Shown here: positions 43,801-49,800 of the stretch, piece by piece | Layout of the letters: each line of letters starts with the position of its first letter | Numbering within the stretch: position 1 is the stretch's first letter | Assembly (NCBI RefSeq): GCF_965363235.1 | Contig: NC_134839.1 | Span: 97,793,743 to 97,857,742 of the forward strand | Direction of reading: 5' to 3' | DNA length: 64,000 nucleotides | From: Mytilus galloprovincialis | Taxonomy: Eukaryota > Mollusca > Bivalvia > Mytilida > Mytilidae | The notes under the pieces: generated by a model | The model's database searches: none | Told to the model about the DNA's origin: nothing | The model's input: only the letters and a program-made list of their open reading frames with translations | Translations under genes and position numbers: made by a program

Positions 43801-46800
43801 AAAATAAGCATTTATCACTTAGCCTCTATTTTTATAGAATAATTAATTAATGGCTCAATGGTTAATACAAGTATTTGAAGTCAAAAGGAAAGATATTTAA
43901 GAAATTAGATCCTGAATGCAATAAAGGTCCTACTGTTTACAAATATTCCATTTTGCCATTTGCCCAGAACATTGTTCATTCAGAAGTTATAACTGGATAG
44001 AAGAAGGGTCACTATGTTAATAATCTTTATAGAAATACTGATGTCTAACGAATAAATTTTTAAGATATTTAAAAGAGGTAAAAAAAATTAATGTTAATCA
44101 TAATGTGAGCATCACCTGAATAATCAATACAACAGCTGTTATATAATTTCATAGATCTTAAATAATGACAACCAGTTATTGATCTTGTGTATTAACAAAT
44201 ATGCGGCATGTTACCTACTGTGAATATTTAGCAAATCATGCAGCATGTTACCTACTGTGAATATTTAAAAAAATTGTGTGGCATGTTACCTACTGTGAAT
44301 ATTTAGCAAATCATGTGGAATGTTACCTACTGTGAATATTTAACAAATCGTGCGGCATGTTACCTACTGTGATTATTTAACAAATCATGTGGCATGTTAC
44401 CTACTGTGATTATTTAACAAATCATGCGGCATGTTACCTACTGTGAAATTTTTCAAGTGAATTTTACAGGATTTTTCTCAAGATCGCAAAAATTAAAATC
44501 CCATTTTGGTCTAAAATGACCAAATCACAATAATAAATGCACGCAATAATTTCTGAATTTACAGTATTCTTATTTTTCATTAAAAAAAAAGAGGTCCTTT
44601 CACCCTTTCTATATAAAACTGATGGCTCATTCAAAGCATTGCTTGTGTTCCTTCATTGCAGTAAGCAAATAAGGCACAAAATTATATAATCATTGTCATC
44701 AGTTGCAGATACAAATGTCAACCTAGAAAACTATTTTCAATAATTTTTTTAATAAATAAGCTATAACATTAAACTTAGACAATCTCCATGGAAATGCGAT
44801 GTTTTTATACTAATAATCTGCATACCAAATTTCATTGACCTACCAGTAGTATTACTCTTAAACTGACCTAATTACAAACTAATACATTCTTAAGCCTCCC
44901 CTACAACAACATGCCTTAGTCCCTTTTTTACTTCAAGACAAAAAGATACGCCCTGGTAACTCATATTTCAGCTGACTTTTTATTTAAAAGAATATCTACT
45001 TATAATTCCCCTAATTCATAATTTCCAACATTCTGCCAAGGTACTTGTTTTTTTTTTTTGCAATTTAAAAAAGAACAAAGCAATATGTTTTATAATATCA
45101 TATGTACAAAATATACCACAGATATCCAATTATGCTCTATTTAACCCAACTGAGTGTGTATATATCCCTACAATATCTAGGGTGTATAGCTAGGTAACAT
45201 GTGCTGTGTACTGTGTCAACTTTTACATCATTAGTATAAATTTTAACAGTTAAAATAGTATAATTGCTTATAAATATGTTACATCAGACATATACAGACA
45301 GATTACAAAATCAGCCCTATTAGAATAGCCTGGTGTAGTTACTATTGCACCTATAATGTTCCAGCCAATGTACAACAACAAAGGACGGCGTAGGTCGGTG
45401 CTGGGAGATTTTTTTTTAACTAAAAAAACTTTTTAATAATGTCTTGATAGATTTTTTTACAAAATGAACATAATGAAAGCTAACCTTTAGCGGTATTCAT
45501 GAAATATGGAGAAATATATCCTCTGTCAAATTTCATTCCTTCAATGGTCTCCAACTCATCTTTCAATGTCTTTCCATCCTAGAAATGACAAGTGCAATAT
45601 AAACTGTAAAATGCATATACACGAACAAAAAAGTGCATGCATGAAAAAAGGTTGCTCAATAATATTTGTTCGTAATTAGTCAGAAATATTTAGCCATTAA
45701 GGATAGATCTGAAAATAGATTTTCAAATATTTTTTTTTTATAAATGCTTAAAAAAGGGTGCAAGGACAATCCTTCCTGGAGCTATGACCTATTTCCTCTT
45801 ATTTTTTTAATTAATGTTGTTTACTACAGTGTGATACTTTTTTTAATCTATCTGCATGTCTGGATCATTCAAACCTCTATATAAATGAGATGGATCACAT
45901 TCTCTGGTTAAAAGCTTAAATGTAAGTGATAGAAAAAGACTTTTGTGCTACTTGGTTGTTACATGACAGATAGTCGTTTGATAATTTATCATGTATAATA
46001 AGGGCATTTAAGCTACATCGAAAGTTAGTCAACTTTTAAAATTTCATTTGTACTTCATGAGAGAGACTTACTTTGACTGTTATGACTCCGTCACGACCCA
46101 CTTTTTTCATGGCATCAGATATTAAGGAACCAACTGTCTTATCACCATTGGCTGAAATTGTAGCTACCTGCAAGATAAGAAATGCACATAAAATAACTAT
46201 TTCCATTTTCAACTTGGACTGATTATGTGTTTAACTTTGATTGTACATAATTTGATTACTTTTATGTTACATCTTATCTACCATATATAAATATTAAGAT
46301 TTCTATGGAAATGGAAGATCATAGATGTAATTTATTTAGCTCTCTGTTAGTCCAAGATATCTACACAATAAACAGCTTGGGTGGAGGAGAGCATTATCTG
46401 TTCTAATCAGTAATAAGAAACATGTTTGCAACTGAAAACTTGTGAATAACACTAAAATTTCTACAAGTTATAATAGATATGTTCTCATTCAGATCCAAAG
46501 TGGATTTGTATTTGTAAAAGTTGTGATAATGATTCAATTATATCTGTGTTTACAAATTTTATCTGGATAAAGAAAAGTTGATGGTTCAGAAACACATAAA
46601 ATATCAGTTTTAATATTTCCTTCTGAAATAATTAGATAATGTGTTGACGGCCATAAAAATAATCATATCTGTATCTAAATTGGTTTAAGTTTTATCCTGA
46701 ACATTCTATTCCCTTTTTTAAAAATTTTGAACGAGTCTTTTTAATGTTCTAGATAATAGTTCAAGTTCAATTTCAATATATATATATACATGTAATTGTA

Positions 46801-49800
46801 GCATCTAATCTGCCATGGCAACCATAAGGATTTCCACGGAAAAGGAAGATGTAATTTATTTAGCTCTTTTTTAGTCCAAGATATCTACACTAAACAGCTT
46901 GGGTGGAGTAGAGCATTTGTAAACTGCATGAATTATAACCAGTTATAAGGAACATATTCATGTTGTTAAAAGCCAACAAATCTATATAAACAGGCAGAGA
47001 TAAACTTGTATACTTTATACTTGAGTTTGATTGGACACATCAAATAATCAAATATACCTATATACAAATAACTCTACCTACTAAATATGTTTGCAGATGT
47101 CAATCTTAATTACAATGCTTGAGCAAACATTAATACATACAAAGCAAGCCTACCAAACTCTTACTCTGCATGCATTATGAAATTGACTAAGTTAAACACA
47201 AATGATCCCAATTTTCTCAGTTGATAAGTAGTAAAAGAAAGGGGTATTATGGTTGAAATATACATGTTATAATTACGGTAAAAAAAACTTTGATATAGTT
47301 TATATTAGTTTTTCTGTACTACACAAGTACAACAGATGTACAAATAATCATCCAAAAAAAACTGTTTGATTTAGCTGCACTTAGAAAGTGTCAAAACACC
47401 AAAGTCAGGACACAAAGCGGGTACAGCAAACATGTACATTATTTGTAGGAAAAGCAGTCTATTTTTTTTTTAATGTAAATTCCTACATTAAATAAAGATA
47501 ACATTTAAAGGGACACTAGCTGCCAAATTCATGTTCACCGATTTGACTCAAATTCTCATATTTTATTTATAACATGAATGTAAAACATTTTTCCAAACTA
47601 TCAAAAGTATAAAATAAATAATTTACAGGACATGGTCTCAATAAGATGTAGCTTCGTTTTGTGTGCATTTTAGCCAAGACGCCATCTAATTAACTATCGA
47701 GTTAACCTTCTATGATGATATAAGTGATGTAAACATAAACAAAGATATAAATAGATTAAGCAACTTGTACAATTGGATTTTTATAGGTCTGTTAAATTTT
47801 GTATTATAGATTAAAAATTTATGTTTATCGTCATTTTTACCTTTATAAGAATGATTGTTTGTGGATCGAATCAGTCCATCAAATTATTTAACTTAGTTTC
47901 ACTTTCAATGTTGACATTCTTTTCCTTTAAACAACTGTACACGGACAATGCAGGTGTTATTTTATCTCTTTCTACAGGTTTAAATTGGAGTTCACATGAA
48001 TACTGATTTAATGAGGTTGAATTATTCACTTGCACGTGAATAATTCATTATCAATGTTTATAAGCTTGATTTGACAAAATTGAACCATTTTAGCTGATAA
48101 AAGAAAATTGTTATTTCACTATTTCACTTTCATTAATGATTGAACAAAAAAAATCATACATTAGATTTTGTATATATCTCCTAGCTAGTGCCCCTTTAAT
48201 GTCTATACAACACTCATCTTAAATTATCAATCCTAAAAGAAAAATTGCTGGTGCTATAGCATGGTCCCATTCTGGTTATTTGTTAGGCTACACCATGCTT
48301 AGCTTGGCCTTACAGCTCTTTTCATAATGCTAGCGAGACACGTGTTTGGATAACTTGCTTGCTTTGTATAAATGTTTGCTTAAGCATTGTATGTGTAATT
48401 AAGATTTACATCTGCAAACAATACAAGTAGGCTGCGTTTAACCTGTGTATGGGTAAATTTGATAATTTGATAATTTCCAATCAAATTTAAATATATTTAA
48501 TGTATACAAGTTTAAATGCGCCTTTTAATGTTGTTTTCAGATGTCAATCTTAATTACAATGCTTGAGCACATATTGAAACAAACAAAGCAATCGAACTAA
48601 AACAAACCTTTGTCTTGTTTGCATTATGAAAAGAACTGTTATATCAATTTCAACATAAATACTGTTGCATCTTTTCTGCCATGATAATCATAAGATTTCC
48701 ACAGAAAAGGAAAGATGTAATTTATTTAGCTCTGTTTTAGTCCAAGATATCTACACTAAACAGCTTGGGTGGAGTAGAGCATTTGTAAACTGTGCAAATT
48801 ATAACCAGTAATAAGGAGAATAATCATATTGATATCAACCTATAAACAGTCAGTAATTGGGTATTGACATGATTTAATGCTTGGCTTTCTATTTAAATGA
48901 ATATAGATGAGCAAGAGTGCTGTTTTTTTTTAAACACGGTTGTACGTGACGTCCATTAGGTGTTCATAAAAATTACCCAAAGAAAAGGCTAGTTGGGGGA
49001 ATTAGAAGTCCCTTCCTCCCATTTAATGGAATAACATTATCAATTTTGATTTTTTAAAATTTTAAATAAAGGGACATTTCACTGAGGTAAAGTAACCGTA
49101 GCCTATTATCATTTAGTTGTTACATTAAATTGCTTATGTGACTTTTTACTGTTTTATTTCTGAAATGAAGATCTTGTCTTCTACAGGGTTTTCTAATTTC
49201 AAATTTCACATGCAATACAAGCATTGGCCAAAATTCCAATATAAATTCTGTTACATCTTATCTGCCATGATAATCATAAGATTTCCACGGAAAAGGAAAG
49301 ATGTAATTTATTTAGCTCTTTTTTAGTCCAAGATATCTACACTAAACAGCTTGGGTGGAGTAGAGCATTTGTAAACTGCAAGAATTATAACCAGTTATAA
49401 GAAGCATATTCATTCTGGTAATATTTGTGACATTGAAATATATGCAGTGCAAGTTTCATTACATTTGGTTGAGAAAAACTAAAAGTTGGGTACCGTAACG
49501 AAAACTAATTATGGGACTTGCATACAGCTAAATGTCAACTGTTACATCAAATTTGAACAGACCCAATGATGGATATGAATGGAAAGAGGGAACAAGATTC
49601 TACAATAATTGCATCATGTATTATATATGCTCTCAGATTTCCAAACTTGCAAGAGCTTCCAGGCCACTGAGTAGTAAAAATTTATATTTTTGAGCCATGC
49701 TTATTATATACACTAATCATATAACTCAGAATTATAGATTCTAAAAATCATTCTGTTTGATATATGATTAATAGTAAATTTAGAGTATTATTATGTTTAT

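Follow-up and report, generated by a model that had tools for sequence, protein, structure and literature searches.

A probable family of H/ACA guide small nucleolar RNA genes in introns of the mussel HSP60 gene, with four copies in one intron

Introduction

Box H/ACA small nucleolar RNAs (snoRNAs) are stable RNAs that bind dyskerin/Cbf5, Gar1, Nhp2, and Nop10, and their guide pocket is expected 14 to 16 nucleotides (nt) upstream of the H or ACA box. Work by Huang et al. from 2004 and 2005 reportedly describes Drosophila H/ACA genes clustered in introns, and the 2004 title speaks of H/ACA snoRNAs in "multiple intronic gene clusters." According to a review (PMC11028025), animals predominantly carry one snoRNA per intron; intronic clusters and long noncoding RNAs made from two snoRNAs of a single intron (sno-lncRNAs) are also described there. 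In the Drosophila mfl gene, four C/D copies each have an intron to themselves (PMC1821038), and cis- and trans-duplicated snoRNAs are described in sponges, nematodes, and platypus (PMC3412847). Here we analyze a 64,000-nt stretch of the Mytilus galloprovincialis genome (contig NC_134839.1, positions 97,793,743 to 97,857,742), called the window below, in which two introns of the HSP60 gene hold six copies of one element. A seventh copy lies elsewhere in the genome, in an intron of RPL5. The copies are very probably a family of H/ACA guide snoRNAs, encoded by paralogous genes in the HSP60 introns, as judged from sequence and predicted structure.

Copies and host gene

The sense strand of HSP60 is the minus strand of the window, and the six copies, of 122 to 132 nt each, lie on that strand. 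Body ends were assigned by convention, from the T before GCTCT through 3 nt past the ACA. Fold z-scores and the number of shuffles that fold equally well, out of 200 for each copy, are given with the copies.

31979 to 52524, minus strand: HSP60 (HSPD1) coding region, 12 exon matches running from 52524 down to 31979
46168 to 49852, minus strand: HSP60 intron 3, GT-AG, four copies
49246 to 49367, minus strand: putative H/ACA snoRNA copy C2, intron 3; z -3.97, 0 shuffles
48660 to 48781, minus strand: putative H/ACA snoRNA copy C1, intron 3; z -1.89, 12 shuffles
46794 to 46915, minus strand: putative H/ACA snoRNA copy B2, intron 3; z -2.63, 1 shuffle
46262 to 46393, minus strand: putative H/ACA snoRNA copy A2, intron 3; z -3.76, 1 shuffle
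34470 to 35516, minus strand: HSP60 intron 7, GT-AG, two copies
35252 to 35373, minus strand: putative H/ACA snoRNA copy B1, intron 7; z -2.67, 4 shuffles
34693 to 34822, minus strand: putative H/ACA snoRNA copy A1, intron 7; z -3.10, 2 shuffles

Introns are numbered by coding exons located by similarity, and a noncoding upstream exon would shift the numbering. A distance of 94 nt separates the 3' end of copy A2 from the 3' splice site of intron 3. A first-pass annotation, made from the window sequence alone, had placed six sense-strand copies at 34693, 35252, 46262, 46794, 48660, and 49246, and had assigned four of them to intron 3 and the other two to intron 7. All six are present at these positions, on the minus strand like HSP60, and their division between the introns fits the GT-AG borders of both when coding exons are counted.

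Architecture of the copies

Folded alone, each of the seven copies gives two hairpins, a hinge, and a tail in the hairpin-AAAUAA-hairpin-ACA layout. The AAAUAA H box (ANANNA) is unpaired in 7/7 predicted lowest-energy folds, and the ACA comes after the 3' stem in every copy, with 3' ends set by convention. The first-pass annotation had described this order of hairpin, AAATAA hinge, second hairpin, and ACA; it recurs in all six of its copies and in the seventh genomic copy, with the first A of the ACA paired in three of the seven folds. For the seventh copy, the fold z-score is -4.19, and none of its 200 shuffles folds equally well.

Exactly 14 nt separate the upper stem of the 5' hairpin from the H box, as had been noted for the six HSP60 copies, and the seventh has the same spacing. 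In the 3' hairpin, the corresponding distance, from ...AUGG to the ACA, is 13 nt in all seven copies and becomes 14 only with the outer pair opened. The lower 5' stem had been thought to change in a pairing-preserving way between copies (GCTCT/AGAGC versus GCTCTC/GAGAGC). The stem is indeed kept, but the change is not compensatory: the lower 5' stem is invariant, and the GCTCTC/GAGAGC form, seen in the A type, has one additional C-G pair at a position that is A.A or A.C in the rest.

Predicted target in 18S rRNA

The 5' pocket of all seven copies is complementary to the site in 18S ribosomal RNA (rRNA) that corresponds to yeast pseudouridine (Psi) 1290, which is the new result of this analysis. 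We scanned the 5' pocket against a 209-base mussel 18S fragment. The pocket, ACUCCAC / ACUAA, is complementary to 18S UUAGU-U-G-GUGGAG, and the 5' hairpin thereby provides bipartite complementarity around an unpaired rRNA uridine. Three distinct pocket pairs, which together cover all seven copies, each form 5+6 pairs at fragment position T1518; the fragment has 52 U sites, and none of the others reaches 3+3. In shuffles of the fragment composition, a duplex as good as 5+6, with G-U pairs allowed, was found at 5 of 1,040,000 U sites.

Fragment position 1419 is taken to be the m1acp3Psi of yeast position 1191. With 1419 so placed, the other modified yeast positions checked show the expected base in 6/6 cases, and T1518 corresponds to yeast 1290; the Rfam small-subunit model aligns the stretch from 1419 to 1518 without gaps. 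In yeast, Psi1290 is guided by snR83 (PMC8307265; PMC9045821). It is equated with human U1347, guided by ACA4, in a table of a third paper, where Entamoeba and Plasmodium guides are equated too (PMC3542256). Going by this complementarity, the 5' pocket most likely directs an ancient modification, pseudouridylation of the mussel counterpart of yeast Psi1290 / human U1347 in 18S rRNA.

Copy number in the genome

A DNA search of the whole genome (1.38 Gb, 331 contigs) gave seven matches and thus at least seven copies. A lax search with the guide-hairpin pattern returned the identical seven places, and a reversed control pattern returned one match. Genome copy counts are lower bounds. The seventh copy, at C2:80453222-80453341, is 17 Mb from HSP60 and lies within an intron of RPL5, on the same strand as that gene, between the exon matches for residues 109 to 175 and 176 to 236. 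All seven copies are therefore sense to their host, in introns of HSP60 or RPL5. The spacer between copies has genome matches confined to HSP60 introns 3 and 7.

Several near-identical copies, one of them at a locus 17 Mb away, together with inverted repeats near the copies in intron 3 that look transposon-like by eye, could suggest a transposon or short interspersed element-like repeat family that folds like H/ACA RNA by chance. We consider this highly improbable. A transposable element would be expected in many dispersed copies on either strand, whereas at least seven copies were found in 1.38 Gb, six of them in one gene and all sense, in introns of two housekeeping genes. The lax pattern adds no place to these seven and its reversed control gives one match, spacer matches are limited to the two HSP60 introns, and the guide fits a conserved pseudouridine site. 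The first-pass annotation had named homologous repeats widespread outside HSP60, on both strands, as the sign of a transposon family; outside HSP60 we found one copy, sense in the RPL5 intron, with the counts being lower bounds. Because of the copy number, the RPL5 locus, and the confinement of the spacer to two introns, the pattern looks like local duplication, block duplication, and one move rather than a dispersed repeat.

Duplicated block and conservation of the copies

Introns 3 and 7 have a block of about 760 nt in common, with 87.5% identity over 770 columns, including 45 gaps.

46247 to 46983, minus strand: block of A2 and B2 with spacer, intron 3, about 87.5% identical to the intron 7 block
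34678 to 35440, minus strand: block of A1 and B1 with spacer, intron 7, counterpart of the intron 3 block

Within the block, 4 of the 252 ungapped positions in the snoRNA bodies are mismatched, compared with 39 of 394 in the intervening spacer (Fisher test, P = 1.4e-5, with sites counted as independent). When all nonbody positions of the block are taken, 56 of 476 are mismatched (P = 2.8e-7 versus the bodies). Tandem duplication within intron 3, together with copying of the block between introns 3 and 7 in one direction or the other, probably built up the array.

One active copy would be enough, and it is possible, if unlikely, that only part of the copies are working snoRNA genes and the remainder are silent duplicates without output, a reading that is compatible with the family as a whole being H/ACA. 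The 3' hairpins differ among the A, B, and C/D types and the 48660 copy is less stable, as might be the case for silent duplicates. However, none of the seven copies has lost the H box, the ACA, the guide, or either lower stem, and the bodies are conserved above the intervening spacer. Also compatible with an H/ACA family, and in our view rather doubtful, is a split of functions in which the 5' hairpins have the 18S target in common and the 3' hairpins guide differing sites or none. In a MAFFT alignment, 34 of 66 columns are invariant in the 3' domain versus 50 of 56 in the 5' domain, with a one-base shift of the B rows inflating the 3' variation; this difference would fit such a split. The A-type pocket also differs.

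Weight of the evidence

Among the readings considered, a family of H/ACA snoRNAs is the best, because the architecture is present in 7/7 copies, the pocket fits a conserved 18S pseudouridine site, guide blocks are shared with a fungal model (snR92, scoring below its cut-off), and wide dispersal was not seen in genome searches whose counts are lower bounds. The H/ACA identification of the first-pass annotation is supported on these grounds.

Several observations weigh against this reading. The copy at 48660 (C1) only modestly beats its shuffles (z -1.89, 12/200). A longer 3' stem pairs the first A of the ACA in three of the seven lowest-energy folds (A1 at 34693, A2 at 46262, and C2 at 49246). 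In the seven-copy alignment, only 2 of 33 pairs have changed on both sides, and these two lie in the 3' hairpin. As many such pairs arise in 135 of 500 shuffles, and the structure slid by -2 columns gives three; covariation therefore gives the fold no support and, being no better than its controls, was set aside as structural proof. One part of the spacer, 34858 to 35037, is about 97% identical between the blocks (5 mismatches in 180), conserved like the bodies, and uneven gene conversion may thus be partly behind the contrast between bodies and spacer. The 18S site was taken from an isolated genomic fragment (L008, 1337 to 1545; G000:C11:78370024 region). A DNA search of the genome with part of this fragment, which skips very common words, yielded four partial places and no complete 18S gene; rRNA matches in IMG/VR contigs (L019 to L021) were likewise partial only.

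The same holds for the comparison with Rfam, in which no family reached the gathering score in the window. The surroundings of RPL5 (L009 to L012), intended as a positive control, also gave no known snoRNA family over the Rfam threshold, and the silence of Rfam therefore says little. The Schizosaccharomyces pombe snR92 model (RF01444) matched both of the copies in the scanned stretch, C1 and C2, scoring 24.1 and 24.0 bits where the cut-off is 80 (expectation values [E] of 0.021 and 0.022). These two copies have five Rfam matches up to E 10, and the three besides snR92 are unrelated and weak.

A candidate element in intron 5

A model built from all seven copies (R1) was run over 123,406 bases, so diverged members elsewhere may be missed. 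Sixteen rows had an E of 10 or less, and eight of these are the seven copies (one lies in two overlapping loci). The next-best match is at 38348 to 38484 on the minus strand (33.1 bits, E 0.00055), in intron 5 and about 80 nt before exon 6. Of the remaining seven rows, four are antisense to copies (E 0.034 to 0.16) and the other three are weak, at E 3.5 to 5.9; E-values from R1 are rough.

38353 to 38482, minus strand: probable further H/ACA element with another guide, HSP60 intron 5; R1 33.1 bits, z -2.77

This element has the stem GCACTTTT/AAAAGTGC, AGATAA, and ACA, and 3 of 200 shuffles equal its fold. The genome search matches only the element itself. In Rfam, it comes closest to Tetrahymena TtnuHACA18, with 29.1 bits and E 0.0092 against a cut-off of 100. 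From these sequence features, it is probably a further H/ACA RNA gene with a different guide. The first-pass annotation lists neither this element nor the RPL5 copy, the latter being located beyond the window.

Intron 5 also contains a tandem array of 37-nt units (44194 to 44454). In intron 6 (35993 to 37297), a 300-nt stretch occurs three times at a spacing of 502 to 503 nt, with 88 to 89% identity to the first. Between the snoRNAs of intron 3 lies an imperfect palindrome (48312 to 48639) with related inverted copies at 46978 to 47182, transposon-like by eye. Two exon matches to HSP10 (HSPE1) at 61195 to 62184 (plus strand) lie on the opposite strand upstream of HSP60, head-to-head with it.

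Proposed processing and function

Splicing, debranching, and exonuclease trimming are the textbook processing route of intronic snoRNAs. By this route, the HSP60 introns would be spliced and debranched, and exonucleases would trim each intron to RNAs of about 122 to 132 nt shielded by H/ACA proteins. The 5' hairpin pocket would then pair with 18S UUAGU-U-G-GUGGAG and bring the equivalent of yeast U1290 / human U1347 into the active site of dyskerin/Cbf5, where it would be pseudouridylated. The array itself would have arisen by the tandem and block duplications described above, with one copy in RPL5. The analysis shows sequence, predicted structure, spacing, sense orientation, complementarity, the number of copies found, and the conservation of bodies above spacer; we infer that the copies are expressed, assembled into ribonucleoproteins, and active in 18S modification in the mussel.

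HSP60 is a stress-responsive chaperonin gene in other animals. Besides single snoRNAs, intron 3 could yield snoRNA-capped sno-lncRNAs reaching from one copy to another, with lengths of about 0.65 to 3.1 kb, which we think quite unlikely. If true, this would tie rRNA modification and a stable nuclear RNA to the transcription of HSP60. Four H/ACA genes sharing an intron make it possible to test sno-lncRNA formation as well as the one-snoRNA-per-intron rule of animals. The host gene is of moderate interest, as is the presence of four copies in a single intron, and the family gives a concrete mollusc guide RNA, predicted to target the 18S Psi at yeast 1290 / human 1347. Mollusc snoRNA annotation looks thin, with none at Rfam thresholds in the window and 47 snoRNAs listed for one mussel assembly in the golden mussel genome paper (PMC10541798).

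Comparison with known systems

The likeness to S. pombe snR92, a box H/ACA RNA, lies in the guide blocks ACUCCACCC and GGACUAAA flanking the pocket, which are identical in the two C copies scanned; the A copies differ from these blocks by one base at the edge of each. However, the snR92 model has its pocket in the 3' hairpin before the ACA, whereas the mussel pocket belongs to the 5' hairpin and precedes the H box, and at 24 bits versus a cut-off of 80, the mussel copies are not snR92 members by the Rfam rule. A literature search for the target of S. pombe snR92 found no publication.

Human ACA4 (SNORA4) has EIF4A2 as its host gene. Rfam presumably contains models of both ACA4 and yeast snR83, and neither appears among the five Rfam matches (E up to 10) of the two scanned copies. 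What the mussel copies would have in common with these RNAs is the 18S site guided (PMC8307265, PMC3542256). The likeness, read from sequence, points to the same target site and does not imply common descent.

Among the titles and abstract openings surveyed, none named a mollusc snoRNA hosted by HSP60. Known by title, the Drosophila clusters resemble the mussel locus in having several H/ACA genes within introns; they differ in host gene, and the mussel has a block common to two introns of one gene. The duplicated snoRNAs of sponges, nematodes, and platypus likewise have copies in neighboring introns of one gene as well as at remote loci (PMC3412847), whereas the mussel has four inside one intron. 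The first-pass annotation had called several snoRNAs per intron unusual for animals; this agrees with a review (PMC11028025), but the Drosophila title suggests a precedent. The mussel element is a genuine gene, though of an ordinary type; what chiefly sets it apart is the presence of four copies in a single intron.

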